From the NCBI GenBank assembly GCA_015494845.1, contig WGAL01000157.1, positions 1 through 14,756 on the forward strand: 14,756 bases of DNA. The letters run 5' to 3'. The translations under genes were made by a program, and so were the position numbers. Source of the DNA: Melioribacteraceae bacterium (lineage in GTDB: Bacteria > Bacteroidota > Ignavibacteria > Ignavibacteriales > Melioribacteraceae). Positions within the stretch are counted from its first letter, which is position 1, and the number at the start of each line of letters is the position of its first letter. Shown here piece after piece: positions 1 to 14,756 of the stretch. Under the pieces are notes generated by a model. The model was not told the DNA's origin, ran no database searches, and saw only the letters and a list, made by a program, of their open reading frames with translations.

Positions 1-49
1 ATATCATAATTTAAAAAAATAATTGAACTAAAAAGTTAGAGGCATCACA

Positions 50-2311
50 ATGTCAATCACAAAAGAAGAAGCGCTAAAATATCACAGCGAAGGACGTCCT
101 GGAAAAATAGAAGTCATTCCGTCCAAACCTTGTTTTACGTCAAGGGAACTTTCAATGGCTTATACGCCTGGCGTGGCGGAACCTTGTCTAGAAATTGAAA
201 AAGATGACTCCAAGGTTTACGAATATACGACAAAAGGGAATCTCGTTGCCGTAATTTCAAACGGAACGGCTGTCCTTGGGTTGGGAAATATCGGGCCACA
301 TGCTGGCAAGCCTGTAATGGAAGGGAAAGGCGTGTTATTTAAAAGATTTGCGGATATCGACGTGTTCGATATTGAAGTAAAAACAACAGATGTTGATGAA
401 TTTGTAAATACCGTTAAGCAATTGGAACCGACTTTTGGTGGAATTAATCTCGAAGATATTAAAGCTCCCCAATGCTTTGAAATTGAAGAGCGTTTAAAAA
501 AAGAAATGAACATTCCTGTTTTTCACGACGACCAACACGGCACAGCAATTATATCTTGTGCGGCTTTAATTAACGCAGCTGAAATTGCCGGGAAAAAGTT
601 GGAAGATATGCGTCTCGTAGTAGTTGGCGCAGGTGCTGCCGGAATTGCTTGCAGTAATCTTTACGTTGCCGCAGGCGTAAAACGCGAAAACATTTCCATG
701 TTCGACTCAAAAGGACACATTCACAAGGGAAGGACTGACTTAAACAAATATAAAGCGCAATTTGCGCAAGACCATGCTTACGAATCGCTTGAAGAAGCGA
801 TGAAAGGTGCAGACGCTTTTCTCGGACTTTCCAAAGCAAATTTGGTAAGCAAGGAAATGGTTAAAGGAATGGCTGATTCGCCTATTATTTTTGCAATGGC
901 AAATCCCGATCCTGAAATTACGTACGAAGACGCCGTCGATGCTCGTCCGGATGTAATCATGGCTACCGGAAGAAGCGACTATCCGAACCAGGTTAATAAC
1001 GTGCTCGGTTTCCCATTTATCTTCCGTGGCGCGCTTGACGTAAGAGCGACGACAATCAACGAAGAAATGAAAATGGCGGCGGTTCGGGCGCTTGCAGATT
1101 TGGCAAAAGAGAAAGTGCCGGAAGTTGTTTCCCGCGCGTACGGCGGAAAGCATTTTGAGTTCGGGCGCGAATACATTATCCCAAAACCGTTTGACCCACG
1201 CGTATTGTGGAAAGTCGCTCCAGCAGTTGCAAAAGCCGCAATAGGTTCCGGCGTTGCGCAAAAAAGAATCGACGATTGGGACGAATATATTGAACAATTA
1301 AAAGAACGTCTCGGCTACTCAAAAGAAATCGTCCGCTTAATGATTCACAAAGCGCAAATGTCGCCCAAGCGCGTAGTTTATCCTGAAGGCGAACACGAAA
1401 CAATTATCCGAGCGGCACATGGCGTTTACGTGGGCAAAATTGCGCGTCCGATTTTACTTGGAAACAGAGAAAAAATCGTAGAAAAAATCAAGAAACTCGG
1501 TTACGTGGTCGGCGAGTTTGAAATTTGCGACCCTTCCGAAAAAGACGAACGCATTGAGGAATTCGCCCAATATTATTACAAAAATCGCCAACGTAAAGGC
1601 GTAACGTTAAAAAAAGCATATCAAAGAGTAAAAGAACCCAATTATTTCGGTTCGTTGCTGGTTGAATTCGGTTACGCGGATGCGCTTGTGGGCGGTTTTA
1701 CATCCGATTACGTTTCAACTATTCGTCCTGCGCTCGAAAGTATCGGAATGGAAAAATCACAAGATGTTGTCGCAGGTATGACAATTGTCGTTATGCAACG
1801 CAAGGTATATTTCTTTGCGGACACTACGGTAAACATTAATCCGACGGCGGAAGAACTTGCACAAATTACAAAATTAACAGCCGATATGGTGAAACGCTTC
1901 GACATTGAACCGCGCGTCGCATTGCTTTCTTACAGCAACTTCGGAAGCGTGAGAAACGAAGAGACCGAAAAAATCAAGCGCGCCGTTAAAATCGCAAAAG
2001 AAGAGAATCCTGGTTTAATCGTTGACGGCGAAATGCAAGCCGACGTTGCGTTAAATCCGGACTTGGTTAAAGAACTGTTTGATTTTTCCGCCGTAAAGGG
2101 AAACGCGAACGTTTTGATTTTCCCGAACCTTTCCGCTGGCAACGTCGCTTACAAATTAATGGAACGCCTCGGCGGAGCGACAATAATAGGCCCGATTTTG
2201 ATGGGAATGAAAAAACCGATTCACGTTTTACAACGCGCATCAAGCGTGGACGATATTATAAACGTAACGGCAATTGCGGTTGTGGATGCCGAATATAAAA
2301 ATAAAAACTAG
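50..2311 (+). CDS. maeB: Malic enzyme with C-terminal phosphotransacetylase-like domain (MaeB type)
   Basis: Oxidative decarboxylation of malate to pyruvate with reduction of NAD(P), a cytoplasmic anaplerotic step. The 753-residue length is typical of the multidomain MaeB family. N-terminal malic domain: AYTPGVA around residues 37-43 with the likely catalytic Tyr38, the KPVMEGKGVLFKRF segment with Lys93, and the metal-binding FHDDQHG at 158-164. The Rossmann domain follows, with GAGAAG at 193-198 and ANPDPEI near 284. From about residue 430 to the end the protein matches the phosphotransacetylase-like domain, with ADTTVNINPTAEELA and the terminal GPILMGMKKPIHVL segment. In characterised MaeB proteins this domain has no transacetylase activity of its own and senses acetyl-CoA; that role here is by analogy. 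AGAGG at 38-42 lies 7 nt before ATG, supporting the start. NAD versus NADP preference cannot be read with confidence. Confidence 0.95.
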   Translation: MSITKEEALKYHSEGRPGKIEVIPSKPCFTSRELSMAYTPGVAEPCLEIEKDDSKVYEYTTKGNLVAVISNGTAVLGLGNIGPHAGKPVMEGKGVLFKRFADIDVFDIEVKTTDVDEFVNTVKQLEPTFGGINLEDIKAPQCFEIEERLKKEMNIPVFHDDQHGTAIISCAALINAAEIAGKKLEDMRLVVVGAGAAGIACSNLYVAAGVKRENISMFDSKGHIHKGRTDLNKYKAQFAQDHAYESLEEAMKGADAFLGLSKANLVSKEMVKGMADSPIIFAMANPDPEITYEDAVDARPDVIMATGRSDYPNQVNNVLGFPFIFRGALDVRATTINEEMKMAAVRALADLAKEKVPEVVSRAYGGKHFEFGREYIIPKPFDPRVLWKVAPAVAKAAIGSGVAQKRIDDWDEYIEQLKERLGYSKEIVRLMIHKAQMSPKRVVYPEGEHETIIRAAHGVYVGKIARPILLGNREKIVEKIKKLGYVVGEFEICDPSEKDERIEEFAQYYYKNRQRKGVTLKKAYQRVKEPNYFGSLLVEFGYADALVGGFTSDYVSTIRPALESIGMEKSQDVVAGMTIVVMQRKVYFFADTTVNINPTAEELAQITKLTADMVKRFDIEPRVALLSYSNFGSVRNEETEKIKRAVKIAKEENPGLIVDGEMQADVALNPDLVKELFDFSAVKGNANVLIFPNLSAGNVAYKLMERLGGATIIGPILMGMKKPIHVLQRASSVDDIINVTAIAVVDAEYKNKN

Positions 2312-2322
2312 CAATCCTTTTC

Positions 2323-2356
2323 GCGCCGTTCTTTTTTAGAACGGCGCTTCTTATTA
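2323..2356 (+). terminator. Rho-independent terminator after maeB
   Basis: A perfect 10-bp inverted repeat, GCGCCGTTCT (2323-2332) and AGAACGGCGC (2338-2347), with a 5-nt T loop, is followed by the T-rich tail TTCTTATTATCTT. It begins 11 nt after the maeB stop and separates maeB from the downstream gene cluster. Confidence 0.85.
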
Positions 2357-2387
2357 TCTTACCCTTTTAAATAATCGACGGAATGTT

Positions 2388-3020
2388 GTGTTAAAAAATT
2401 TTGCATATCTGATTTTTTCGGTCGTGGTTTTTTTCTTATTTACTCTTCTTTACGGAAGCATATTAAATATTAGAGAAAAGCCGTTAAACGAAATTTTGAA
2501 AGAACGCAATATTCCCGAGTTGATTAATCCTAAAATTATAGTAAAAGTTAGCGAAAATGTTCTGATGCTTTTTAACGGAGATGAACTGATAAAAAAATAC
2601 AAAATCAATCTCGGCAGAAGCAATTTTAAACTTGCCGATTCAAGGAAAAACTATATTACAACGCCGAAAGGAATTTTCTCCGTTTGCGATTTTTATCCTG
2701 ATAAAAAATATTACAAATCTTTTTTGCTTAATTATCCGGACAGTTTAACGATACTCAAAGCATTCAAATTAAAATTAATCGATGCACAAAGTTTTAAGAA
2801 AATTATGAACGGAAAAAAATACGGATGCAAGGTTAGGTTCGACAAAAAAATTTTCGGACCGCCTTTGACAATTCACGGATTCGGAAAAGTCAATTACATT
2901 CTTAAAAATTTGCCTTTTGTTTTTAATTGGACTAACGGCTCAATAGCGCTTTCCAACGAAGATTTGGATGAAATTTCGCCATATTTGCAAATAGGAACTA
3001 AAATTATAATCACGCATTGA
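2388..3020 (+). CDS. Membrane-anchored YkuD-fold (L,D-transpeptidase-like) protein lacking the catalytic Cys
   Basis: 210 residues. An N-terminal hydrophobic helix (about residues 5-27) acts as a signal anchor, placing the rest in the periplasm. A YkuD-like domain follows: a substrate-side strand (KIIVKVSENVLMLFNGDELIKKYKI), TTPKGIFSV, the conserved IHG (His163-Gly164), then WTNGSIALSNEDLDEI. In active L,D-transpeptidases the last motif is S/T-x-G-C-I and its Cys is the nucleophile that cross-links peptidoglycan or attaches proteins to it. Here the position is Ser185 (codon TCA at 2940-2942). The only other cysteines lie elsewhere (SVCDF, YGCKV). Transpeptidase chemistry is therefore doubtful; a binding role, or an unusual serine nucleophile, is possible. 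The start is GTG with a weak GACGGA at 2377-2382; no in-frame ATG is suitable. Its TGA stop overlaps the next gene's TTG start, which suggests translational coupling. Confidence 0.78.
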   Translation: MLKNFAYLIFSVVVFFLFTLLYGSILNIREKPLNEILKERNIPELINPKIIVKVSENVLMLFNGDELIKKYKINLGRSNFKLADSRKNYITTPKGIFSVCDFYPDKKYYKSFLLNYPDSLTILKAFKLKLIDAQSFKKIMNGKKYGCKVRFDKKIFGPPLTIHGFGKVNYILKNLPFVFNWTNGSIALSNEDLDEISPYLQIGTKIIITH

Positions 3021-5137
3021 TTTTGTCGTTTAGAAAGTTATTCATATTGTTTTTTTTAATATCGATTACCGCCGCATTCCCGCAAACGTTGAGGTTGCGT
3101 GAGCTTGAATCAATAAATTTTGAAGGCAACTCAAATATTCCTGACCATCAATTGCAAAGCGTAATTTTTTCGAAAGAAAGTCCTGGAGCGATTAGCAAGT
3201 TTTTATTCGAACTTAGTCCTTCGCTTGGAAACCCGCCTGTTTATTTCGATTCGCTCCTTGTTGAGAAAGATATCAAAAACCTGATTTCATATTATAAATC
3301 CGAAGGTTTTTTTAAGGTTAAAATTAAAAATAAAATAAAAAGAACCGAAGAAGCGGTTGAGCTGACCTTTGTCATTTCCGAAGGGCCGCGTTCGCGGTTC
3401 GGAAAAATAAAAAAAATAGGATTTGACAAAATTCCCCCAAAATTAAAACCGCAAGTTAACGACGCATTTAAAATAGACAGCACAATGTATTTTTCCGCTG
3501 GAATTATCCGTGAAATCAACTCAAACGTTTTAAGCATTTTGCAGGACAACGGATTTTACTCGGCGCATTTCGCAAAAACAAAAGCTTTAATCGACACAAC
3601 CCAAAATAGCGTGGATGTTACATTCAATTTAAATTTGGGAGAACGCTACAAAATAAGCGACGTTTCCGTAGAAAAAAACGAAACCGAATACAGCTACGTT
3701 GACGAAAATCTAATAAAAGAAATAGTTGACATTCATAAAAACGAATGGTTTAACAAATCAAAAATTTCCGAAGCGGAAGCGCGGTTATACAGAACCGATT
3801 TATTCAGTTCCTCAATGATTCAAATCGGAAAAATCGATTCGTTCCAACTTGCAATTCCGTTAAAAGTTAAAGCGTCGGTTAAACCCCGTAACGACATTGC
3901 GCCTGAAATTATTGCCAACAACGAAGACAACGTTTTCAACTTCGGTTTTTCACTTGGTTACACAAGAAGAAATTTTCTCGGCGGAGCTCGCAAACTTAAT
4001 TTACAGGCATCGGCGACGCTGCAAGACCCTGTAAGCTTTTTTAGCAATCTCGGTTCAATCGACAGCTCTTTTTACGGTTACGGAGATTTGCGTCTCGGAA
4101 TTGAACAGCCGTTTATATTCGGCAAACCGATTTACACAAAACTCGAAACTTATTACACGCTACAAAACCGGCGCAACGAATATTATTCGCAAATTTACGG
4201 CGTAAGATTGACAATGGATTTTTCCATGCCGAAATACGTTTTTTTTAACGGACTTACCGCTTTTGTCAGAGCTGAAAATTCAACCTATCATTACAAGGAA
4301 GATTACGTTTACGGACTTTTCGAAAATTACATAAATACGAACCTTCCACCTGGCGAACGCGAAGACGCTCTTGATTCGTTAAAAAACACCGACTTGACCA
4401 ATTTCCAAAGCAGCGGACAAAACTTCTACATCGGCGGCGACGGCGTTAGGAACACAACAAACGATTTTCGATTTCCGACAAAAGGATACTCGCTTTCGCT
4501 ACATCTTGAAGACGGCAATAATTTACTGGCTCTTTTGAAAAAATTATTTAATTCCGATTTCAAAAGACCGCAATACGCAAAAGCAATCGTAAATTTCGTT
4601 TACTATTTACAAAAATTTTCAACCTATACTTCGACTTTGGGATTTAAAATTAAAGTCGGCGCAATTCATTTGTTCAAAGGCAACCGCGAAGAAATTCCGC
4701 TTGACGAAAGACTTTACGCAGGCGGCAGCAACTCGGTTCGCGGTTGGAGAAACAGAGAGTTAGTGCCCACTAACTCGACGTTAAATATTGACGCATCAAA
4801 GCCGACCGATTTGGAAGCGATTCTTTTGCAAAATTTTACTCCTGGCGGTTTTGCCTTGTTGGAAGGTTCACTGGAATACAGAAAAAAATTAATAGGCGAT
4901 TTCGGCGGAACGGTTTTTGCGGACTACGGCAACACTTGGCTTGATTTTAAAGATTTCCGTTGGGACGACATCGCCGTCGCAATAGGTTTCGGATTGAGAT
5001 ATTACACGGACTTTTTCCCGATTCGTTTTGACTTCGGATTTAAATTTTACGACCCTTACGACAGACGTCCGTTTTTTAAGAAAAGCATTTTCAGAGAAAC
5101 ATTTAACTTCCACCTCGGTATTGGCGAGGCGTTTTAA
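3017..5137 (+). CDS. Omp85-family outer-membrane barrel protein with POTRA domains (TamA/BamA-like)
   Basis: 706 residues. A signal peptide (FRKLFILFFLISITAAFPQ) is followed by about three POTRA-like domains: roughly residues 27-123, 124-210 and 211-290, with recurrent VSEGPR/LNLGERYKI-type boundaries. A long transmembrane beta-barrel follows, beginning near FGFSLGYTRRNFLGG. The L6-loop signature GGSNSVRGWR (Val574-Arg578) is the hallmark of Omp85 proteins, and the chain ends in Phe, as outer-membrane barrels usually do. Size and three POTRAs fit TamA/TamL better than the main BamA, which is normally longer with five POTRAs, but the sequence alone does not settle this. The likely role is insertion or translocation of proteins at the outer membrane. 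The start is TTG at 3017 inside the upstream TGA stop; a second in-frame TTG at 3023 is possible. HK1 follows after 45 nt, so cotranscription is likely. Confidence 0.88.
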   Translation: MILSFRKLFILFFLISITAAFPQTLRLRELESINFEGNSNIPDHQLQSVIFSKESPGAISKFLFELSPSLGNPPVYFDSLLVEKDIKNLISYYKSEGFFKVKIKNKIKRTEEAVELTFVISEGPRSRFGKIKKIGFDKIPPKLKPQVNDAFKIDSTMYFSAGIIREINSNVLSILQDNGFYSAHFAKTKALIDTTQNSVDVTFNLNLGERYKISDVSVEKNETEYSYVDENLIKEIVDIHKNEWFNKSKISEAEARLYRTDLFSSSMIQIGKIDSFQLAIPLKVKASVKPRNDIAPEIIANNEDNVFNFGFSLGYTRRNFLGGARKLNLQASATLQDPVSFFSNLGSIDSSFYGYGDLRLGIEQPFIFGKPIYTKLETYYTLQNRRNEYYSQIYGVRLTMDFSMPKYVFFNGLTAFVRAENSTYHYKEDYVYGLFENYINTNLPPGEREDALDSLKNTDLTNFQSSGQNFYIGGDGVRNTTNDFRFPTKGYSLSLHLEDGNNLLALLKKLFNSDFKRPQYAKAIVNFVYYLQKFSTYTSTLGFKIKVGAIHLFKGNREEIPLDERLYAGGSNSVRGWRNRELVPTNSTLNIDASKPTDLEAILLQNFTPGGFALLEGSLEYRKKLIGDFGGTVFADYGNTWLDFKDFRWDDIAVAIGFGLRYYTDFFPIRFDFGFKFYDPYDRRPFFKKSIFRETFNFHLGIGEAF

Positions 5138-5182
5138 AAATTTTGTTGAAATTTGTCTTATGATTTACTTAATATTTGATTA

Positions 5183-7129
5183 ATGAAAATAACGTTAATG
5201 CACATATCAATTTTTGTTTTGTTTTTGTTAAGCAAACCTGTTAATCTCTTTGCACAAAAGGATACTTTGTCCGGCGACGTTCCCAAATCTTTGTTAAAAA
5301 CCGCTTGGCAGTTCAGGCAATCAAATCCGGATTTCTCAATGAAACTTTCCAAAGAAGCCATTGCAATTGCCAAACAACAAAACAATAACGCAATGCTGGC
5401 TTTAGCTTATAATTATACCGGAATTATTTATAGAAACTTATTCGAGTTTGATTCTTCTTACTTTTATTTTAAGAAAGCGCTTACCGCTTCCCTACTTGCC
5501 AAGGATTCAGTCGAGTTAGCTTATTCATATAACAATCTCGCTCTGTATTTTCAATTCCAGCATCAATATCATCTTGCGCTTGAAAATGCAAATAAAGCAT
5601 ATGAAATATTCAATAAAATAAATAATAACAAAGGGAAAGCTTATTCATTATTAGTGTTGGGACGCCTTTTTATAGATTTGGAAAATTACGACATGGCAAA
5701 TTCTTATTTATTAAGAACCATAAAACTCCGCCAGGAAATCGGCGATTCGATTTCCACCGCAAAAGCATGGTATTCATATTCATATTCTCTGATAGAAAAA
5801 GGCGAAATAAACAAAGCAAAAAAAATCCTGGATAAACTGAACCGGCTATTCGCGAAAGTTGAAATTCAAAAATATTTGGCGCATACGTACTTTGCTTACG
5901 GTGTAATCGACCTAAAAGAAAAAAAATACCACAAGGCGATTAATAATTTTTTGAAAGCAATTAAACTTTACGAGAAAGTAAATTTCATTGTAGGAAAAAT
6001 TGACACATATAATGAACTCGGTAAAGCGTTCATCGGTTTAAAAAATACAAAAGCCGCCTTAAATTATCTTCTGGAAGCGAAAAGATTATCATGGAAAAAG
6101 AAATACTTTAAAGGATATGAAAAAGCGTTGTCAAATCTTGTTGATTTGAGCATTCTCAAGAGTGACAAAACCGGTTTAACGCGATATGCCGACAGATTAT
6201 TAGCCGTAAAAGATTCCCTTTACCTTCTGGAAGCAAATGAACGAAACAAAGAATACCACAAACTTTTTACCGCAAACGAAATTTTCAAGAAAAATACCGC
6301 ATTGCGTAGCGACATTGAATTTCACAAAACACTTCTGTTGTTAGGAATCAGTTTGGTACTAATTTTTATCGGTTTCATTTTAATTCTTTTACTTCAAAAC
6401 AGAAAGATTAAAAACAAAACCCAACAACTTGAACATGCGGTTCAAGAAAAAAATAAATTGTTCAGCATTATAGCTCATGATTTGAAAAATCCTTTTTCTT
6501 CTTTGCTTGGCTACGCCGACATGCTAATCTCCGAGCTTGAATACGAATTTGATGAAGCCGAGGTTAAGTCAGCCTTGAAAAATATGCGTCTTTCCGCGCA
6601 AAAATTGCTGGAAATGTCCGAGAATATTTTGCAATGGGCGCGCTCCCAAACCGGAAAAATGAAATACAAACCGGCGGAGTATCAAATAAACGATATTATT
6701 TTAGACGTGCTTTCTTATTTTACGCAAAGCGTTAAAATAAAAGGTATAGAATTTAAAGTTAATCTAACCCCGAATCACAAATGTTTTTGCGACAAGGACA
6801 TGATACAAGTTATCCTTAGAAATTTAATTTCAAACAGCATTAAATTCTGTTCGTTCGGCGATTTTATAAAAGTTTTTACGGAAGTGGATAAGCTGGAAAA
6901 GAAAATTTACATTTCCGTTGAGGATTCCGGAGTCGGAATGACGCATGAGCAAGTCGCTAACTTGTTTAACTCCACTATTTCGCAAACCGGAACTTCAGGA
7001 GAAAAAGGCACTGGGCTGGGTTTGTTGCTTGTAAAAGAAATGGTTGAAAAACACGACGGAAAAATATTTGTCGAAAGTAAAAAAAATGTAGGAACGCGTA
7101 TTACCTTTACCGTTCCTTATGTTGAATAA
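5183..7129 (+). CDS. TPR-containing membrane sensor histidine kinase, catalytically complete
   Basis: 648 residues. Signal peptide (about 1-24, ending LFAQ), then a periplasmic region of five to six TPR-like helical repeats (about 70-340), one transmembrane helix (about 384-405), and a short coiled linker. The cytoplasmic kinase core has an H-box FSIIAHDLKNPFSSLL with phospho-acceptor His432, an N-box RNLISNSIKF with Asn551, G1 DSGVGM starting at Asp581, and G2 GTGLG at 609-613. All residues expected for autophosphorylation are present. It ends in the usual FTVPY strand. No response regulator is encoded next to it, so it is an orphan kinase here. It lies 45 nt after the Omp85 gene and 23 nt before a degenerate paralogue. 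No clear Shine-Dalgarno site precedes the ATG, which is common in Bacteroidota-like genomes. The signal sensed is unknown; TPRs suggest protein or peptide binding. Confidence 0.92.
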   Translation: MKITLMHISIFVLFLLSKPVNLFAQKDTLSGDVPKSLLKTAWQFRQSNPDFSMKLSKEAIAIAKQQNNNAMLALAYNYTGIIYRNLFEFDSSYFYFKKALTASLLAKDSVELAYSYNNLALYFQFQHQYHLALENANKAYEIFNKINNNKGKAYSLLVLGRLFIDLENYDMANSYLLRTIKLRQEIGDSISTAKAWYSYSYSLIEKGEINKAKKILDKLNRLFAKVEIQKYLAHTYFAYGVIDLKEKKYHKAINNFLKAIKLYEKVNFIVGKIDTYNELGKAFIGLKNTKAALNYLLEAKRLSWKKKYFKGYEKALSNLVDLSILKSDKTGLTRYADRLLAVKDSLYLLEANERNKEYHKLFTANEIFKKNTALRSDIEFHKTLLLLGISLVLIFIGFILILLLQNRKIKNKTQQLEHAVQEKNKLFSIIAHDLKNPFSSLLGYADMLISELEYEFDEAEVKSALKNMRLSAQKLLEMSENILQWARSQTGKMKYKPAEYQINDIILDVLSYFTQSVKIKGIEFKVNLTPNHKCFCDKDMIQVILRNLISNSIKFCSFGDFIKVFTEVDKLEKKIYISVEDSGVGMTHEQVANLFNSTISQTGTSGEKGTGLGLLLVKEMVEKHDGKIFVESKKNVGTRITFTVPYVE

Positions 7130-7152
7130 AAGGGATTTTTATTTTATAGAAT

Positions 7153-9126
7153 ATGCAAAAAAAAGGATTTTTATATTTATTAATAATTGTCTTCGGCTTA
7201 TTACTTGCACCCAAACTTAATGCAACAAAACCGGATAAAAATCCGTCAGAAAATCCTTCAAAAGAAAAATTTGAAAAAAAATGTGAAAACGCCATAACAG
7301 CCGCATGGAGCTTAAGAAACTCCAAGCCATACAACGGCAAAAATATTTTACAAAAAGCATTAAAGACATGCAAAAAAACCGAAGATAAAAAACTGTTGGC
7401 AAAAGCGCACAATATTTTGGGCGTTCTTTACAGAAATATCAGCGAATACGATTCTTCGTATATTCAATACAAGCAGGCATTGAGATACGCCATTTTAGCC
7501 AACGATTCGGTTCAGATCGGATATGCTTACAATAACATAAGCGGTTATTTCGGTTATAAAAATCAATTGTATCTTGCGTTGGAATATGCTTTTAAAGCAG
7601 CGAAAATTTTCGAGAAAATCAATTTTAAAGAAGGCTTAGCTTTCGCGGATGTTGAGATTGCTTTGGCTTATTATTATTTGAAGGATTATAAGAAGGCGGA
7701 AAAATTTTTTAATGACGTTGTAAAAATACGGAAAGAATTAAACGAAGCGGAAGGACAGGCTGTCGGATTTTTACATTTAGGCTCGGTTTATCTTGAGCAA
7801 AATAAATTATCTGAAGCAAAAAAATATTTGTTCAAGAGTTACAAAATTTTTGTCGCAAAAAATAATAACGAAAAAGGTTTGGGAGCCGTTTTACGACGCC
7901 TTGCGACAATTGATTGCTTGCAAAACAAAGATGATATAGCGATAAAAAAATTTTATAACGCGCTAAGTAATTTAATTAAAGCGAAATTTCACGCAGGTAT
8001 TGTCGAATGTTATCTCGGGCTTTCCCATTGTTATTTCAAAAAAGAAAAAACCGATTCGGCTCTGTATTACGCAAATCTTGCGTATCACTTGGCAAAGGCA
8101 AAGAGTTACCATATCGGCTATGAAAAAAGTCTGGAACAGCTTTACAAAATTTATTCTACTATTGGTAATATAGACAAAACCGCTTTCTATTTTAAGCGAC
8201 TTATTGCATTACGCGACTCGAATTACAGAAAAGAAACGCTCCTACGCAGTGAAGAATTCCAAAAAATAAGCGAAATCCGCGATTTGGAAGAAAAAAACTT
8301 AAAGCTGAAAATAGACATAAAAAACAAACGGTTATTTGTCAGTTCTGTTCTAATTTCATTGCTTCTCATTTTTGCCTTTTTGATAATCATTCTCATTCAA
8401 AACCGTAAAGTCCGCATTCAAAGCCGTCAATTAACCAAAACCCTCGAAGAAAAAGATAAATTTATGAGCATCATCGCGCAGGATTTGAGAAATCCTTTTT
8501 CTTCTTTGCTGAGTTACGCTGATTATCTGCTGGGCGAGTTGAATCATGATTACAACATCGAGGAAGTAAAAAACGGCATCGTTCAAATGCGCGATTCTGC
8601 GTACAAACTACTTGAAATGGTAGAAAACCTTTTATATTGGGCGCGTTTGCAAACCGGCAGAATACAATTTAATCCTGCAAATAACAAAATAGCCGAAACA
8701 ATTGAGGAAGTTGTAAACTATTTCAAGCAAAGTTTGGAAACAAAGGGAATTGCTCTGGAAGCGGACGTTAATCCGAATTATGAATGTTATTGCGATAAAG
8801 ACCATTTGGCAATAATTCTAAGAAATATAATAAGCAACGGCTTGAAACTGAGTAATGCCGGAGACAAAATAAAAATTTACGCCGAACCTCGTCCAAAAAT
8901 AAACGTAATAGATATTATAATCGAAATTACCGGTAAAAAAATAACAGGCAAACAATTTTCCGAATCTTTCTCTCTTGATGTCACGGAACACGACACGAAC
9001 AGCGTCAGGCTCGGCATGCTGTTGGTAAAAGAAATGACAGGAATAAACAAAGGGAAAATAATAATAGACTCCGAAAAAGAAAACGAAATAAAAGTCGTTC
9101 TTTCTTTCCCTATGGGAAAAGATTAA
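7153..9126 (+). CDS. TPR sensor histidine kinase paralogue with ablated catalytic motifs (putative pseudokinase)
   Basis: 657 residues with the same layout as the preceding gene: signal peptide (about 1-24), TPR-like repeats (about 80-345), transmembrane helix (about 395-416), kinase core. Recognisable paralogous stretches include YRN-x2-E/F-x-DSSY and NPFSSLL. The H-box reads SIIAQDLRNPFSSLL, so the phospho-acceptor His is Gln443 (codon CAG at 8479-8481). The G1 box is ITGKKI: the Asp that contacts adenine is Ile592 and the second Gly is Lys596. G2 is SVRLG at 617-621 instead of GTGLG. Only the N-box Asn562 remains. The frame is intact and the flanking helices are well conserved, so this is not an obvious pseudogene. 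It cannot autophosphorylate at the usual site and probably does not bind ATP normally. A role as heterodimer partner or regulator of the neighbouring kinase is inference. Confidence 0.9.
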   Translation: MQKKGFLYLLIIVFGLLLAPKLNATKPDKNPSENPSKEKFEKKCENAITAAWSLRNSKPYNGKNILQKALKTCKKTEDKKLLAKAHNILGVLYRNISEYDSSYIQYKQALRYAILANDSVQIGYAYNNISGYFGYKNQLYLALEYAFKAAKIFEKINFKEGLAFADVEIALAYYYLKDYKKAEKFFNDVVKIRKELNEAEGQAVGFLHLGSVYLEQNKLSEAKKYLFKSYKIFVAKNNNEKGLGAVLRRLATIDCLQNKDDIAIKKFYNALSNLIKAKFHAGIVECYLGLSHCYFKKEKTDSALYYANLAYHLAKAKSYHIGYEKSLEQLYKIYSTIGNIDKTAFYFKRLIALRDSNYRKETLLRSEEFQKISEIRDLEEKNLKLKIDIKNKRLFVSSVLISLLLIFAFLIIILIQNRKVRIQSRQLTKTLEEKDKFMSIIAQDLRNPFSSLLSYADYLLGELNHDYNIEEVKNGIVQMRDSAYKLLEMVENLLYWARLQTGRIQFNPANNKIAETIEEVVNYFKQSLETKGIALEADVNPNYECYCDKDHLAIILRNIISNGLKLSNAGDKIKIYAEPRPKINVIDIIIEITGKKITGKQFSESFSLDVTEHDTNSVRLGMLLVKEMTGINKGKIIIDSEKENEIKVVLSFPMGKD

Positions 9127-9136
9127 TTTAAAAATA

Positions 9137-9165
9137 AAAAAGGCAACCTTGTTGGTAGCCTTTTT
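9137..9165. terminator. Bidirectional terminator between convergent genes
   Basis: Arms AAAAAGGCAACC (9137-9148) and GGTAGCCTTTTT (9154-9165) pair with a single A-A mismatch around a 5-nt loop. The A-run on one side and T-run on the other let the hairpin terminate in either direction. It sits between the stop of the + strand pseudokinase and the stop of the - strand PLP enzyme, where a shared terminator is expected. Confidence 0.8.
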
Positions 9166-9186
9166 CAAATATGACGGTTAGTTATA

Positions 9187-10656
9187 TTAACTACTCTTAA
9201 CCTTCTCATTAAACTCTTCGATTAATTTATCCCAAACGGGAACAATCGAGAAGCGTTCTTCCCAATAATTTTCGTCGTACCACTGAGCATTTAATTCCTC
9301 TACTTCTTTTCCTTGTTGCTCAACCCAAGTGAAATATTTCAAATTGTGAATTGCTTTTTTGTCGTAGTAAGTCAATTCTTTGTAATAATCGATTGATTGT
9401 TTTTTAACCACGGAATTCCAATCGATTGCGGCTTGACGTTCGGAATACGCGCCCCAATCGCGGTTCATTTCGTCCAAGCGGGAAAGATACATTTCCGCGG
9501 AATCCGTAAACACTGTGAAAATAACGTCGTTCTCGTTCATCTCGAAAAATTTGGCTGTTTTTATTGCGCTTAGCAAATTGCTCGCCGAAGAAATTCCCAA
9601 ATACGGAAGTTTGGAGACCAAATCTTTGTCAACGCCGAGTTCGTTAATTAAAAACTTATGTCCTTCCGGCTCGTTAAACAAACGAAGAACGCGCAGCGGG
9701 TCTTCGTCGTCAATTGCGGTAACGGCGTTAGTGTTTTTAACATTGTGAATCCACGGCACGTGTTTGTCGCCGATGCCTTCGATTCTATGTCCGCCGAAGC
9801 CGTTCATCAATAAAGTCGGGCATTGCAACGCTTCGGACGCAACTACTTTGATTTCCGGATTTACTTTGCGCAAGTAATCGCCTGCGGCAATCGTTCCGGC
9901 AGAACCGGTTGCGCTAACGTAAGCGGAAAGTCGTTGCTTTCCTTCTTTTATTTGATTAAACAAAGTTTCAATTGCGTTGCCGGTAATTTCGTAGTGCCAA
10001 ATCGCGTTTCCGAATTGGTCGAATTGGTTGAAAATTAAATACTCGTCGCTTTCCGCTTCGAGTTCGTGGCATTTGTCGTAAATCTCTTTTACGTTGCTTT
10101 CGCAACCTGGCGTTGCATAAACTTCCGCGCCGATGTTTCGTAGCCAATCAAATCTTTCCTGACTCATTTCTTCCGGTAAAATCGCAACCGCGTGAACGTC
10201 GAGCAACGCGGAATTGAACGCGCCGCCTCGGCAATAGTTCCCTGTGGAAGGCCAAACCGCTTTGTGATATTCGGGATTGAATTTCCCGGTTACAAGATAC
10301 GGCGCTAAACATCCGTAAGTGGCGCCGACTTTATGCGCGCCGGTCGGAAAAAACTTTCCGACAAGTCCGATAATTCGCGCTTTTACGCCGGTGATTTCTT
10401 TCGGGATTTCCAAAAAATTAATTCCGTTTATTCCGCCGTTTCCCGGGTCGTTTTGCCAATTTATTCTGAAAAGATTAAGCGGATTGACTTCTTGCAAATC
10501 AACTTCTTTTAATTTTTCTTGAATTTCGGCAGGAATTGTTTCAGGATGTTTTAACTGATTGAACGTCGGTAAAATTATATTTTTTTCTTTCGCGCGTTTG
10601 ATTGTCTTTTGCAAAAACTCTTCGTTTTCAATTTCCCAATTCCAATTACTACTCAT
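9187..10656 (-). CDS. Fold-type II PLP-dependent enzyme (cysteine synthase/threonine synthase/TrpB superfamily), substrate unknown
   Basis: 489 residues. The PLP Schiff-base lysine is probably Lys109 in PTGAHKVGATYG. STGNYCRGGA (137-146) matches the substrate-carboxylate loop of fold-type II enzymes, and the Ser/Thr/Gly-rich SATGSAGTIAAG (248-259) matches the PLP-phosphate loop. The protein is longer than O-acetylserine sulfhydrylase (about 310 aa), with about 100 extra residues at each end, and I do not recognise it as threonine synthase, TrpB or cystathionine beta-synthase. Such proteins are usually annotated only as PLP-dependent beta-subunit or cysteine synthase-like, so the reaction is open: beta-replacement, elimination or ammonia-lyase chemistry would all fit the fold. 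AGGAG (complement of 10663-10667) lies 6 nt before ATG and fixes the start. It is divergent from the lysine-catabolism operon across 307 bp, which hints at a shared amino-acid role but does not prove it. Confidence 0.8.
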   Translation of the reverse strand: MSSNWNWEIENEEFLQKTIKRAKEKNIILPTFNQLKHPETIPAEIQEKLKEVDLQEVNPLNLFRINWQNDPGNGGINGINFLEIPKEITGVKARIIGLVGKFFPTGAHKVGATYGCLAPYLVTGKFNPEYHKAVWPSTGNYCRGGAFNSALLDVHAVAILPEEMSQERFDWLRNIGAEVYATPGCESNVKEIYDKCHELEAESDEYLIFNQFDQFGNAIWHYEITGNAIETLFNQIKEGKQRLSAYVSATGSAGTIAAGDYLRKVNPEIKVVASEALQCPTLLMNGFGGHRIEGIGDKHVPWIHNVKNTNAVTAIDDEDPLRVLRLFNEPEGHKFLINELGVDKDLVSKLPYLGISSASNLLSAIKTAKFFEMNENDVIFTVFTDSAEMYLSRLDEMNRDWGAYSERQAAIDWNSVVKKQSIDYYKELTYYDKKAIHNLKYFTWVEQQGKEVEELNAQWYDENYWEERFSIVPVWDKLIEEFNEKVKSS

Positions 10657-10758
10657 AATTTTCTCCTAAAAATTTTAAAATAAGTTTCGCAATATAACAT
10701 TTTTACCGCAAGACGCGAAGTTGTGAGTTTGCTTGTATTATTCATTTTTGTAAAGAAA

Positions 10759-10790
10759 CAACCTTGAAGGCACTAATCCCTTCAAGGTTG
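10759..10790 (-). repeat. Palindromic repeat element, copy 1 (inverted relative to copies 2 and 3)
   Basis: Perfect 12-bp arms CAACCTTGAAGG (10759-10770) and CCTTCAAGGTTG (10779-10790) surround an 8-nt loop. Read on the - strand, the core has the same arms as copies 2 and 3, and its loop GATTAGTG resembles GACAAGTG of copy 2. It lies between divergent promoters, so it is not a gene-end terminator for either neighbour. Confidence 0.8.
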
Positions 10791-10808
10791 AGGCAGTAAC
10801 TCCCTTTA

Positions 10809-10842
10809 TTTACCTTCAAGGGACAAGTGCCTTGAAGGTAAA
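10809..10842 (+). repeat. Palindromic repeat element, copy 2
   Basis: Perfect 13-bp arms TTTACCTTCAAGG (10809-10821) and CCTTGAAGGTAAA (10830-10842) with loop GACAAGTG. It is the same 28-bp core as copy 3, downstream of the ALDH gene, differing at two loop positions. Copy 1, 18 nt away, is in the opposite orientation, so the pair could also fold into a larger cruciform. Confidence 0.8.
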
Positions 10843-10963
10843 GATTCCATCACTCGTCACTAAAAATTACTTCCAAAAACAAATTTCTTAAACTCGCGTT
10901 TAGTATATTATTAATCTTAATTTAATTTTTTCTGCAACCATTTTTACGGAGGAAATTACGGTA

Positions 10964-12259
10964 ATGAAAAGACTTGTAGGAATACGAAGAGAAGACAAAA
11001 ACATTTGGGAACGCAGAGTTCCGCTTACGCCGGAACACGTTAAAATTTTAAAGGAAAAAGAAAACATCGATTTCATCGTTCAACCGTTTGAGCGACGCGC
11101 TTTTCTGGACGACGAGTATCGCGAAGCTGGCGCAAAAGTAGATGAAAATATTAGTGAAGCGCCTTTTATTTTTGCCGTGAAAGAAATTCCGGTAAAACTT
11201 CTCGAACCGGAAAAAGTTTATATGTACTTTTCTCACACGATTAAAGGGCAAGATTACAATATGCCGATGCTCCAAAAGCTGCTCGATTTGAAAGCGACGC
11301 TAATCGATTACGAAACGATTAAAGACGACAAGGGTCGCCGGCTCGTATTTTTCGGACGCTTCGCTGGCATTGCAGGAATGATTGACGCATTGCACGCGTT
11401 CGGCAAACGCTTGCAATATTTCGGTTACGACACGCCTTTTCTGCACGTAAAAATGTCGTACGAATACGGCGAAGTTGCGCTCGCGAAAAAAGATTTGCAA
11501 AAACTCGCGTCCGAATTGAACGAAGCGGATTTGCCTGATGAATTTGCGCCTTACATTTTCGGATTTTCCGGCTATGGCAACGTTTCGCGCGGCGCGCAGG
11601 AAATTTTTGATTTGCTTCCTGCAAAGGAAATCCAACCTGACGAAATTGCCGGAATTGTTGAGCGAAAAGAAAAAGGTTTGTTCAAAGTTGTTTTCAAAGA
11701 AGAACATCTCGTAAAACCGAAAGACGAAAACAAACCTTTCGAGTTAAACGATTACTACAATCACCCGGAAAAATACGAACCGATTTTCGAGAAATATCTC
11801 GTTAATTTGTCGGTTCTCGTAAACGCGGTTTATTGGGATGCGCGTTACCCGCGTTTGGTAACGAAAAAATTCTTGAAAGAGAATTTCGACAAAATGCGCA
11901 TGGTTCTTATTCAGGATATAAGTTGCGATATTGACGGCGGCGTTGAAATTACTTACAAAGCGACCGAACCGGACGTGCCGGGCTATGTTTACGATCCGGA
12001 AACGGACGAGTTTACTGACGGCTTTGAAGGAAAAGGCGTTCTGAATTTGGCTGTCGATAATTTACCGACCGAAATTGCGAAAGATTCGTCGGTCGCTTTC
12101 GGCGAAGCGCTTTTGCCGTTTGTGCCTGGAATTGTAAAAGCAGATTATGAAAAATCTTTTGTGGAAATAGATTTGCCGCCGGAAATCAAACGCGCGGTAA
12201 TAGTTTACAAAGGCGAACTTACGCCGGATTACGAATATCTTAAAGATTATTTGAAATAA
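10964..12259 (+). CDS. Stand-alone lysine-ketoglutarate reductase (saccharopine-forming; LKR half of LKR/SDH)
   Basis: Condenses lysine with 2-oxoglutarate and reduces the product to saccharopine using NADPH, the first step of the saccharopine route of lysine breakdown. The 431 residues cover the whole LKR domain of the bifunctional LKR/SDH enzymes (AASS of animals, LKR/SDH of plants). Visible features are the N-terminal IRREDKNIWERRVPLTPEHV (AlaDH/PNT-like), VKE with Lys73 and FSHT with His91 (plausible equivalents of the catalytic Lys and His of this fold), FGRFAGIAGMID (130-141), and the nucleotide-binding GYGNVSRGAQEIF (203-215). The C-terminal NLPTEIAKDSSVAFGEAL and GELTPDYEYL segments mark the normal end of an LKR domain, so the gene is not truncated within it. 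The saccharopine dehydrogenase half is absent. The next gene starts 25 nt later, so they form an operon. Confidence 0.88.
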   Translation: MKRLVGIRREDKNIWERRVPLTPEHVKILKEKENIDFIVQPFERRAFLDDEYREAGAKVDENISEAPFIFAVKEIPVKLLEPEKVYMYFSHTIKGQDYNMPMLQKLLDLKATLIDYETIKDDKGRRLVFFGRFAGIAGMIDALHAFGKRLQYFGYDTPFLHVKMSYEYGEVALAKKDLQKLASELNEADLPDEFAPYIFGFSGYGNVSRGAQEIFDLLPAKEIQPDEIAGIVERKEKGLFKVVFKEEHLVKPKDENKPFELNDYYNHPEKYEPIFEKYLVNLSVLVNAVYWDARYPRLVTKKFLKENFDKMRMVLIQDISCDIDGGVEITYKATEPDVPGYVYDPETDEFTDGFEGKGVLNLAVDNLPTEIAKDSSVAFGEALLPFVPGIVKADYEKSFVEIDLPPEIKRAVIVYKGELTPDYEYLKDYLK

Positions 12260-12284
12260 ATCAATTAAAGAAAGGAGATAAAAA

Positions 12285-13823
12285 ATGGATTACGAATTTT
12301 TAAAAACTTTGGGAATCGAAGATAAAAATTACGGCGGTTCCACGGGTTTGGAATGGACGAAAACCGAAGACGCGGGCGAACTAAATATTTATTCGCCGGT
12401 TGACGGAAAATTCATCGCGAGCGTTTATATGGTTTCGGAAGACGATTACGATAAAATCGTTGCGAAATCGGTCGAGGCGTTCAAATATTGGCGAACCGTT
12501 CCCGCGCCGAAACGCGGCGAGATTGTTCGTCAAATCGGTTTGGAATTGCGCAAGTACAAAGAACCGCTCGGAAAACTCGTTTCCTACGAAATGGGAAAAT
12601 CGGTTCAGGAAGGAATGGGCGAAGTTCAGGAAATGATTGACATTTGCGACTTCGCGGTCGGGCAATCACGCCAATTGTACGGATTTACAATGCAATCGGA
12701 ACGCCCGCAACACAGAATGTACGACCAATATCATCCGCTCGGCATAGTAGGAATTATTACCGCGTTCAACTTTCCGGTTGCGGTTTGGGCTTGGAACGCA
12801 ATGATTGCAACCGTTGCCGGCGATACGAACTTGTGGAAACCTTCCTCGAAAGTTCCGCTTTCTGCAATTGCTGTTCAAAAAATTCTCGCCCCGATTATCA
12901 AAGAAAACGATTTGCCGGAAGGTTTGTTCTCGCTCGTGGTTGGAAAAGGTTCTACCGTCGGCGAAAAACTTTTAAACGATACGAGAATTCCGCTTGTTTC
13001 AATTACCGGCTCGGTTGACATCGGTCGCCACGCGGCGCAAACCGTTGCAAAACGTTTCGGAAAAACAATTCTCGAACTGGGCGGAAACAACGCAATTATT
13101 TTAACTCCGGACGCCGATTTGAAAATGGCAATTCCGGCGATTGTCTTCGGCGCTGTCGGAACGGCGGGACAACGTTGCACAACCACGCGTCGCTTGATTA
13201 TCCACGAAAGCATTTACGACAAAGTAAAAGATTCGCTTGTTGACGCTTACTCGAAACTCAAAATCGGAAATCCGCTCGACGAATCAAATCATGTTGGTCC
13301 GTTAACCGACAAAGCCGCGGTCGCTTTGTTTAAGGACGCGCTCAAACGCCTTGAAAAAGAAGGCGGAAAAATTCTTTACGGCGGCGAAGTTTTAGAAGGC
13401 GAAGGCTACGAATCCGGCTGCTACGTTCGTCCGGCAATTTGCGAAGCCGAAAACCATTACGAAATCGTACAGGAAGAAACGTTTGCGCCGATTCTTTATT
13501 TGATTAAATATTCCGGCGACGTTCGCAACGCGATTGAACTTCACAACGACGTTGTGCAAGGGCTTTCATCGGCAATCTTTACAAACAACTTGCGCGAAGC
13601 GGAGATTTTCCTTTCGGCGGAAGGTTCGGATTGCGGAATCGCGAACGTGAACATCGGAACTTCCGGCGCGGAAATCGGCGGAGCGTTCGGCGGCGAAAAA
13701 CACACCGGCGGCGGTCGCGAATCCGGCTCCGACGCGTGGAAAGCGTATATGCGCAGACAAACAAACACGATAAATTACGGAACCGCTTTGCCTCTTGCGC
13801 AAGGAATTAAGTTCGAGATTTAA
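12285..13823 (+). CDS. Alpha-aminoadipate-semialdehyde dehydrogenase, ALDH7 family
   Basis: Oxidises alpha-aminoadipate semialdehyde (in equilibrium with piperideine-6-carboxylate) to alpha-aminoadipate with NAD, the third step of the saccharopine pathway. 512 residues, normal ALDH7 length. Landmarks: [16 protein letters not shown] with Asn162, LWKPSSK (NAD binding), [19 protein letters not shown] with general-base Glu264, and [10 protein letters not shown] with catalytic Cys298. Near the C terminus [20 protein letters not shown] and [15 protein letters not shown] are highly characteristic of human ALDH7A1 (antiquitin) and bacterial orthologues and separate it from generic ALDHs. AGGAG at 12273-12277 lies 7 nt before ATG. 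Pairing with LKR strongly supports lysine catabolism. The 3' half is markedly GC-rich compared with the kinase genes in this window. Confidence 0.93.
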
Positions 13824-13843
13824 TTATCAATTAGTAAATTCTT

Positions 13844-13871
13844 ACCTTCAAGGGGCAAGCGCCTTGAAGGT
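13844..13871 (+). repeat. Palindromic repeat element, copy 3
   Basis: Perfect 10-bp arms ACCTTCAAGG (13844-13853) and CCTTGAAGGT (13862-13871) with loop GGCAAGCG. It has the same arms, length and orientation as copy 2, with two loop substitutions. It starts 21 nt after the ALDH stop in a tail-to-tail interval and might reduce read-through, but it has no T-tract. Confidence 0.8.
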
Positions 13872-13886
13872 GAAGCATAAATCAAA

Positions 13887-13914
13887 GTAGGGACAACTTG
13901 CGAGTTGTCCCTAC
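13887..13914. repeat. Second palindrome family, perfect 12-bp arms
   Basis: Arms GTAGGGACAACT (13887-13898) and AGTTGTCCCTAC (13903-13914) pair perfectly around TGCG. It lies 16 nt from copy 3 of the other palindrome and only 4 nt from the end of the - strand gene. It has no T-run of useful length. It may act as a transcription barrier between convergent genes or be a REP-type repeat. Only one copy is in the window. Confidence 0.75.
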
Positions 13915-13918
13915 AAAT

Positions 13919-14413
13919 TTAAGACGACTTCACTTCATCAACTTTCTCGTTCACAAAAAGCGAAAATACTTTTATATTGTCCGCCAAGTTGCGGACATCG
14001 TGTTCCAAAGGATTTATTTGGGAAAGGTAAGACGTTAGTTTTTTTGCTTCTTTCGAGATTTTTTCCAATTCATCTATTATTTCGGTCTTTACATCCGTTT
14101 CTTCCAAATCCATAATTACAAGTTGCATTCTGTTTAACAGATTGTTGGTAAAATCTTGCATTGTATGAATGGTCGTCGAGAACAATTCAAGTTTCTCCTT
14201 TTCGATTTTCCTTTGCCTCCAAATATCCAATTGGACAAACAGAACAGGCAAAAGAATAGCAAGCGGAAGAAAAGCATATAAATGCAAGTTCACGATATAT
14301 TTTACAAATTCGTAAATAGGATGATAATCGGTGAAAATGTTAATCGCCATTAACAGAAGTACAATCAAAATGAAAACGGTTGTAGCTTTGGAAATACGAT
14401 ATTTTGAACTCAT
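13919..14413 (-). CDS. Small two-helix membrane protein with histidine-kinase-like helical (DHp-like) segment
   Basis: 164 residues from ATG at 14413; an in-frame TTG at 14428 would add five residues. GGGG about 6 nt upstream of the ATG favours the shorter form. There are two membrane helices (about 11-27 and 44-62), a charged linker, then an amphipathic helical hairpin: EKEKLELFSTTIHTMQDFTNNLLNRMQLVIMDL and a second helix to about residue 135. The first helix resembles the phospho-acceptor helix of histidine kinases; EK-x2-LFS-x3-H with His83 can be aligned to His432 of the kinase at 5183-7129, while MQDFTNNLL (Gln86) could alternatively align with HDFNNLL-type H-boxes. No ATPase domain follows. 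Function is unknown; a dimerisation or signalling partner is conjecture. It is divergent from the secreted-protein gene at 14682. Confidence 0.7.
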   Translation of the reverse strand: MSSKYRISKATTVFILIVLLLMAINIFTDYHPIYEFVKYIVNLHLYAFLPLAILLPVLFVQLDIWRQRKIEKEKLELFSTTIHTMQDFTNNLLNRMQLVIMDLEETDVKTEIIDELEKISKEAKKLTSYLSQINPLEHDVRNLADNIKVFSLFVNEKVDEVKSS

Positions 14414-14605
14414 AAAAACCCCAAACAAAATTTAAAAACATTTTACCTCGTTTGATTTCTAAAAAATAATACTCATTCGGCAAAGCGCAAAACAATTTTT
14501 CCTTTTTGCAAAATTTTTACTCAAATAATAACCAACGCTTTTACGGAGCGAATTTTAAGATTAACCGGTAAATGCGAAATCCGTCAAAGTTTTTTTCCCG
14601 CGCTT

Positions 14606-14633
14606 TTTGTATTTTGTTTTGCTGATAAATTTG
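14606..14633 (+). promoter_or_regulatory. Possible Bacteroidota-type promoter for the secreted-protein gene
   Basis: TAAATTTG at 14626-14633 fits the Bacteroidota -7 consensus TAnnTTTG exactly, with a TTTG at 14606-14609 upstream. The spacing (16 nt) is a little short of the usual about 19. It is 48 nt before the start codon at 14682. The stretch is AT-rich, so a chance match is quite possible. Confidence 0.25.
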
Positions 14634-14681
14634 AAATTATTTTAACAATCAAGTTTTTATCAAAAAAGAACGGAGTTAAAT

Positions 14682-14756
14682 ATGAAAAAGATAATTGTTC
14701 TGCTTGCGGTTTCGTTTATGTTTTCGGTTCTGCAAAACGCTTTTGCGCAAGACAAA
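14682..14756 (+). CDS. N-terminus of a secreted or outer-membrane protein (runs off the window)
   Basis: Only 25 codons are visible. GGAG at 14672-14675 lies 6 nt before ATG. The residues form a classic signal peptide: KK, a hydrophobic core IIVLLAVSFMFSVL, then QNAFAQ with a likely signal peptidase I cleavage after AFA. Nothing of the mature protein can be identified. Confidence 0.8.
   Translation, partial: MKKIIVLLAVSFMFSVLQNAFAQDK

Follow-up and report, generated by a model that had tools for sequence, protein, structure and literature searches.

Can a sensor histidine kinase gene be kept by selection despite the loss of its phospho-acceptor and of key ATP-site residues, and what could its product do beside an intact paralogue? 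This question is raised by a tandem gene pair in the draft genome of a Melioribacteraceae bacterium (G000; 1.99 Mb), of which a stretch of 14,756 nucleotides (contig WGAL01000157.1 of assembly GCA_015494845.1, positions 1 to 14,756; hereafter the window) was analysed. The features needed below are, with coordinates, strand and the evidence in brackets:

2388-3020, + strand, L,D-transpeptidase-like gene (ORF, Pfam)
3017-5137, + strand, Omp85-type gene (ORF, Pfam)
5183..7129, + strand, HK1, intact TPR sensor histidine kinase paralogue with His432, DSGVGM and GTGLG, 648 aa (ORF, Pfam, alignment)
7130..7152, + strand, 23-nt spacer from HK1 stop to HK2 start, without visible hairpin terminator (sequence)
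7153..9126, + strand, HK2, TPR sensor pseudo-histidine kinase, 657 aa (ORF, Pfam domains, alignment, AlphaFold2)
8479..8481, + strand, Gln443 codon replacing the phospho-acceptor His (alignment)
8824..8847, + strand, N box NIISNGLK, retained (alignment)
8926..8943, + strand, G1 box, degenerate, ITGKKI (alignment)
9001..9015, + strand, G2 box, degenerate, SVRLG (alignment)
9137..9165, no strand assigned, hairpin and T run downstream of HK2, where transcription of the HK1-HK2 pair probably ends (fold against shuffles)

Loss of catalytic residues in HK2

HK1 and HK2 both contain TPR repeats, HisKA and HATPase_c as detected by Pfam and are 36% identical across 615 columns of a pairwise alignment. 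The HK2 reading frame begins with ATG and extends over 657 codons with no internal stop. In the alignment, Gln443 (IIAQDLRNP) stands at the position of His432 of HK1, the G1 box DSGVGM (residues 581-586 of HK1) has become ITGKKI (592-597) with the Asp and the second Gly gone and the middle Gly present, and the G2 box GTGLG (609-613) has become SVRLG (617-621) with the first two Gly gone and the final LG present, while the N box NIISNGLK (558-565) retains both Asn and the Lys. The initial annotation had named these three replacements as well as the undisturbed frame and the kept N-box Asn, and ORF call and alignment bear it out on each. Its summary that all catalytic boxes but one are destroyed is, however, too strong, because the G1 and G2 boxes, degenerate as they are, each retain one Gly. 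HK2 still scores slightly above the Pfam cut-offs for HisKA (30.8, cut-off 26.9; HK1 41.4) and HATPase_c (31.0 bits, cut-off 26.4; HK1 82.3), a point that speaks against the pseudokinase reading.

Judged by its sequence, HK2 is a pseudo-histidine kinase, with a HisKA-type DHp domain devoid of the phospho-acceptor His and an ATP-binding domain of which the N box is left and the catalytic residues are gone; the combination of His, G1 DxGxG and G2 GxGxG that marks an active TPR sensor histidine kinase is not found in it. We do not place it in the DivL or RocA families.

Transcription and gene surroundings

The active-looking kinase gene had been described as lying 23 nt upstream of HK2, which is the length of the spacer. 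A terminator pattern scan found no + strand hairpin in this spacer, and the fold of 7125-7160 is no better than that of shuffled sequences (z 0.52). Downstream of HK2, on the other hand, the hairpin at 9137..9165 (-13.3 kcal/mol, z -3.98) is equalled by 0 of 200 shuffles; the pattern scan missed it, probably because of an A-A mismatch in the stem. Since the gap between the genes is short and terminator-free and a hairpin follows the second gene, HK1 and HK2 probably share one transcript. Codon usage does not differ clearly between the two genes, and GC at the three codon positions is 41.3/27.2/35.4 in HK2 and 40.4/27.0/36.1 in HK1. A promoter scan of the window was uninformative (19 sites against 20.0 expected). 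No receiver domain was found by Pfam in the window or on this contig, with 20 matches above the cut-off elsewhere in the genome.

The L,D-transpeptidase-like and Omp85-type genes share 4 bases and, on the same strand, stop 45 bases short of HK1, so that the kinase pair may belong to an envelope-related operon. Between these two genes and a preceding putative gene, which we take by eye to be malic-enzyme-like, lies a strong hairpin (2323-2347). At 10964-13823, two adjoining ORFs of 431 and 512 aa presumably encode, as judged by eye, proteins of the lysine-ketoglutarate reductase and aldehyde dehydrogenase types, perhaps for lysine breakdown. A 169-aa ORF (13919-14428, - strand) has no Pfam family above its cut-off and, to the eye, presumably contains membrane stretches.

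An orthologue that has lost the same functional residues

In a search of 5.8 billion proteins with 7997 candidates scored, HK2 has a lone close relative, P0002, of 656 aa and 67% identity over the full length; the next match is at 33%. P0002 carries Asn instead of the phospho-acceptor His (IIANDLRNP), a G1 box reading ENAGEGM with the Asp gone and the Gly retained, a G2 box reading KAELG with the Gly gone and, unlike HK2, an N box (ISD) with the second Asn changed to Asp. Both proteins thus lack the His, the G1 Asp and the first two Gly of G2; HK2 alone has also lost the second Gly of G1, and different residues have taken the vacated places. Such a pattern would be expected if catalysis had been lost before HK2 and P0002 split and the positions had then been free to change. 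The initial annotation had looked to orthologues for conservation of the Gln and of the lost G boxes, and this holds in part: the losses of the G1 Asp and the two G2 Gly are shared, but the second G1 Gly is not lost in P0002 and the Gln is not conserved, with Asn in P0002 and Lys in an analogue from a second genome (see below). What is conserved, as far as these sequences indicate, is the absence of His and not a particular new residue.

By descent and architecture, HK2 belongs to the TPR sensor histidine kinases (Pfam TPR_12, HisKA, HATPase_c; Bacteroidota by match names). An alignment of 206 rows was built from HK1, HK2 and 204 relatives drawn from loci and protein matches, with 4 rows more than 95% identical to another; the phospho-acceptor column holds His in 203/206, the three others being HK2, P0002 and, with Lys, the downstream member of a tandem gene pair in genome G001. 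P0142-P0148, seven relatives that came to light afterwards, all carry His. The counts omit one distant Ignavibacteria kinase (L070) from a scan of genome contigs.

The trait is narrow, because no HK2 orthologue is evident in four further genomes of the same genus (E <= 1e-40, up to 15 scored candidates per genome), one of which, G001, possesses a dead copy of its own. Under the same thresholds, G002 and G004 contain one related His-bearing kinase each and G003 none. The HK1-like kinases of G002 (L043, 7207-9231) and G004 (L044, 3259-5271) keep the His, and their G2 box reads GTSLGL in both.

Maintenance or decay

The comparison with P0002 bears on whether HK2 is a functional gene or a pseudogene caught before its first stop codon. 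P0023, a relative of HK1 with 80% identity, served as the reference. P0023 lies on a 4.1-kb contig and P0002 on an 18.8-kb contig, with no linkage made between them, and as the two may derive from different species, reliance is placed on contrasts between domains. Identity in the HK2/P0002 pair amounts to 60/69 (87%) in DHp, 235/350 (67%) in TPR, 65/109 in CA and 19/43 (44%) in the segment from G1 to G2; the respective values of the HK1/P0023 pair are 66/69, 263/349, 98/112 and 41/46 (89%). Within the HK2 pair, the G1-G2 segment differs from DHp (p 3.5e-6) and from TPR (p 0.004), and it differs between the two pairs (p 9.5e-6). The contrast of CA against TPR is likewise unequal between the pairs (p 0.003), while that of DHp against TPR shows no difference (p 0.3). 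Measured by identity to HK1, HK2 has diverged no further in its TPR (109/349) than the His-bearing P0024 (110/349) and similarly in DHp (42/69 vs 47/69, p 0.48), but it has done so in CA (37/107 vs 65/111, p 0.0004; p 0.0095 against P0025). By sequence, the TPR sensor, the membrane helix and above all the DHp helices remain under constraint.

The relatives available as DNA share no more than 37% identity, which is too distant for dN/dS. In a simulation with kappa 2 and the base composition of HK2 itself, the HK2 frame was therefore left to drift neutrally until protein identity had fallen to 68%; a mean of 14.7 stop codons arose (range 5 to 28, 500 runs), whereas HK2 contains none and P0002 is complete in length. 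The orthologue, the simulation and the domain-wise constraint speak indirectly for a gene kept by selection despite its losses, the stop-codon simulation and the identities being a less direct test of selection than dN/dS. With the orthologue lacking the same functional residues in full length, the DHp constrained and the ATP-binding segment relaxed, we consider it very probable that HK2 is a maintained pseudokinase, as had been proposed from the sequence at the outset. Decay as a pseudogene would accommodate the missing catalytic residues, the lack of an evident orthologue in the four same-genus genomes searched and the greater divergence of the HK2 pair (0.47 changes per column vs 0.26 in the HK1 pair; the species may differ). 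It is nevertheless highly improbable in view of a 67%-identical, full-length relative, of the many stops that drift would have left, of a codon-position GC resembling that of HK1 and of a contrast between DHp and the G1-G2 segment that is not expected of uniform decay. An error of sequencing or assembly deserves thought in a single draft genome of 444 contigs and 78% completeness, and its chance is negligible: several separated lesions arose without a frameshift, and a second protein repeats the same functional losses.

A second tandem pair and its origin

In genome G001, of the same genus, two same-strand genes for TPR kinases follow each other with a spacer of 3 nt between the stop codon of one and the ATG of the next. 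His, G1 and G2 are all present in the upstream copy; the downstream copy is:

L042 5377-7317, - strand, second, dead kinase of G001, 647 aa (alignment, Pfam)

This copy has Lys in place of His (ILAKDLHIPF) and retains the first N-box Asn alone; neither a G1 nor a G2 box can be recognised, and Pfam yields no HATPase_c match at E 0.01. The neighbouring four ORFs match squalene/phytoene synthase, amine oxidase, citrate synthase and AMP-binding families in Pfam, and within a 16-kb stretch around the pair nothing matches the genes of the window except the kinases. This stretch contains no receiver domain; G001 has 34, the nearest on the contig about 15 kb away.

Trees were built from 34 rows selected among the nearest TPR kinases, fewer than the full 206-sequence set, with the His-less group fixed from the 206-row alignment before tree building. 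In the whole-protein tree the G001 genes form a sister pair (100/99), and HK2 and P0002 group with HK1, P0023, P0024 and P0025 (100/97), with weak support (83/64) for whether HK2 branches before or after P0024 and P0025. A tree of the sensor only recovers the pairing of the G001 genes (100/99) and the HK2-HK1 grouping (98/98). A single clade of the three His-less proteins is rejected with the whole protein (p 0.0028) and with the sensor (p 0.0038). Because the trees pair the G001 copies and reject one clade of dead copies, the layout of an intact kinase followed by its dead twin probably arose twice. One old duplication for both pairs, with gene conversion making the G001 copies look like sisters, would accord with the same order in the same genus and with the long branch of the G001 dead copy (1.64). 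We rate this as unlikely, though not strongly so, since the sensor-only tree, which leaves the degenerate kinase domains aside, pairs the copies in the same way and rejects the single clade, as does the whole protein, and the gene surroundings of the two pairs differ. A single duplication would alter the history of the pairs and leave the pseudokinase call for HK2 untouched.

The recurrence in G001 lifts HK2 above a single odd gene. A tandem pair that has seemingly arisen twice is a natural replicate and names the likely partner directly, and it indicates which parts of a histidine kinase selection still holds after the loss of catalysis, with the DHp first, then the sensor and the ATP segment least.

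Predicted structure

AlphaFold2 predicts a full sensor-kinase fold for HK2 (mean pLDDT 87.8, pTM 0.63, 73 aligned sequences), with high confidence for the TPR and most of the CA domain, moderate confidence for the DHp (block means 68-79) and values below 50 for residues 22-33 and 611-616, the latter in the ATP lid. HK853 is the closest solved relative by sequence, and its chains also come first by Foldseek E-value, with DivL seventh and tenth. By target-normalised TM-score, which partly reflects domain posture, the DivL chain 4q20_B is at the top of the 50 listed (0.88, 2.5 A, 232 columns), whereas the HK853 chains reach 0.56-0.72.

Proposed function and alternatives

We lean, somewhat beyond even chances, towards HK2 as a maintained pseudo-histidine kinase that acts via its sensor and DHp and probably pairs with HK1; that HK1 is the direct partner we hold to be just about probable. 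A duplicate of a TPR sensor kinase would have become HK2 by losing the phospho-acceptor and key ATP-site residues. Expressed from the transcript of HK1, HK2 would be an inner-membrane protein with an extracytoplasmic TPR domain, a probable location because the N-termini of both proteins have, by eye, a hydrophobic stretch resembling a signal peptide. HK2 would then pair with HK1 through the DHp helices, and its sensor would set the autophosphorylation of HK1, or its phosphatase action on an unlinked response regulator, with either sign. The parts that HK2 has kept, sensor, membrane helix and DHp, suffice for sensing and pairing, and the part lost is that of phosphate chemistry. The partner is inferred from tandem position and retained DHp, for which HK1 is the simplest candidate. 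HK853 phosphorylates its own His in cis. If HK1 acts in this way, the HK1-HK2 pair would still be active and possess two different sensors; if it acts in trans, HK2 would silence HK1.

Two other modes of action have to be weighed against pairing with HK1. In a DivL-like reversal, the DHp of HK2 would dock a response regulator, perhaps a phosphorylated one, and relay information by this route and not via dimers with HK1. DivL, which is without kinase or phosphatase activity, indeed binds phosphorylated DivK (PMC4211667), the DHp is the best-kept part of HK2, and the model of HK2 fits 4q20_B best by target TM-score among the 50 chains listed. That fit is, however, not the best by E-value and is partly a matter of posture, DHp conservation is equally expected of dimer pairing, and neither the window nor the 16-kb stretch of G001 holds a receiver domain, which together make such docking improbable. 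Still less probable is a decoy role, in which HK2 would pair solely with itself and use its TPR sensor to titrate away the ligand of HK1, the cytoplasmic half being a mere anchor. The TPR domain is retained between the orthologues (67%) and recognised by Pfam, as a decoy would have it, but the TPR domains of HK1 and HK2 are only 31% identical and an anchor does not need a DHp that is 87% conserved, the best kept of the compared domains.

Extending the pairing of HK2 with HK1 to G001, we tentatively suggest, as a conjecture with the odds against it, a recurrent module. In two or more lineages of a single genus, a TPR kinase would have undergone tandem duplication, its downstream copy would have lost phospho-acceptor and ATP site yet retained sensor and pairing domain, and the two products would work strictly as a heterodimer that unites two sensors with a single catalytic half. 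If true, this module would be comparable to the pairs of active and dead paralogues among eukaryotic enzymes. Two gene pairs in one genus make the heterodimer hypothesis testable.

Relation to known pseudo-histidine kinases

To our knowledge, only a few bacterial pseudo-histidine kinases have been described, and the genes of most of them do not adjoin that of the kinase under their control. The gene of DivL, a protein with a PAS sensor, is not known to be linked to that of CckA, and neither are the RetS and GacS genes known to be linked to each other. In Caulobacter DivL, as described in PMC4211667, Tyr550 takes the place of the acceptor, kinase and phosphatase activity are absent, modulation of CckA is the proposed function and a docking interface for phosphorylated DivK is named. 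HK2 resembles DivL in the replaced acceptor and the fold, a DivL crystal chain being among the closest, and DivL modulates another kinase, as HK2 may do. HK2 differs in having Gln at the acceptor position (Asn in P0002), a TPR sensor and a tandem intact paralogue; it lacks the G1 Asp and two G2 Gly, whereas DivL retains weak binding of an ATP analogue. Membership in the DivL family was considered and rejected: HK2 has Gln and a TPR sensor and nests among TPR kinases in a tree without DivL, so that its working could at most be DivL-like.

RocA of group A Streptococcus is a membrane pseudokinase that interacts with the sensor kinase CovS and whose CA domain is without catalytic residues, the latter as in HK2 by its sequence; RocA, however, retains a dispensable His, has six predicted membrane helices and no evident TPR and is not described as a tandem duplicate of CovS (PMC7028121). 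FasB and FasC of the same organism are encoded by adjacent sensor-kinase genes like HK1 and HK2; the published account reports that they are co-transcribed and form heterodimers in two-hybrid assays with no self-pairing and that the kinase domain of FasC is dispensable, but also that FasC keeps a likely phosphorylated His, that the operon includes the regulator FasA and that there are six membrane helices and no TPR sensor (PMC12675982). In Pseudomonas, RetS regulates another sensor kinase, GacS, via heterodimers (PMC12189002, PMC12675982), and it differs from HK2 as a hybrid kinase that, according to PMC12189002, also acts on phosphate. A frameshifted ChrS acts as a pseudokinase and needs its DHp, while for a truncated form no heterodimer with HrrS was seen (PMC9491836). 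Among the matches listed from the open-licence literature, there is no description of a tandem TPR kinase/pseudokinase pair or of a pseudo-histidine kinase from Bacteroidota or with TPR. Pseudo-histidine kinases as such are thus known already (DivL, RocA); new are the seemingly recurrent pairs of co-encoded kinase and pseudokinase.

Searches for further dead copies

Among 79 genomes of the family (E <= 1e-40, up to 15 scored candidates per genome), same-strand neighbour pairs were recognised by eye in G000, G001 and G096. The tandem TPR kinases of G096 (L079, 4249-6249 and 6952-8958, - strand), which belongs to another genus, have His, G1 and G2 in both copies, and tandem duplication therefore need not lead to catalytic loss. 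At the DNA level, the DHp pattern with His occurs at 852 sites in 154 of 164 genomes of the order. The version with Gln or Lys has 4 sites in these genomes, HK2 and three kinases of genus g48, and the version with Asn has 2, neither in an open frame of 100 aa that holds the motif, which is chance level (reversed control 4). In 391 genomes drawn evenly from the class and overlapping the order set, the Gln/Lys pattern has 6 sites (reversed control 2), namely HK2, two g48 kinases and three outside kinase-like frames. No further degenerate tandem pair came to light in the 164 order and 391 class genomes by these patterns, which miss other spellings such as AKDLHIPF of the G001 copy.

The g48 kinases (L081, L082 and L083, from G057, G114 and G053) represent three species and are sensor kinases of about 727 aa, presumably PAS-type as judged by eye. 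They carry Gln for His (AQDLKSPF), and their G1 (DNGQGI or DNGRGI) and G2 (GNGLG, GTGLG or GAGLG) boxes look intact, which makes them acceptor-less kinases whose ATP site is seemingly whole.
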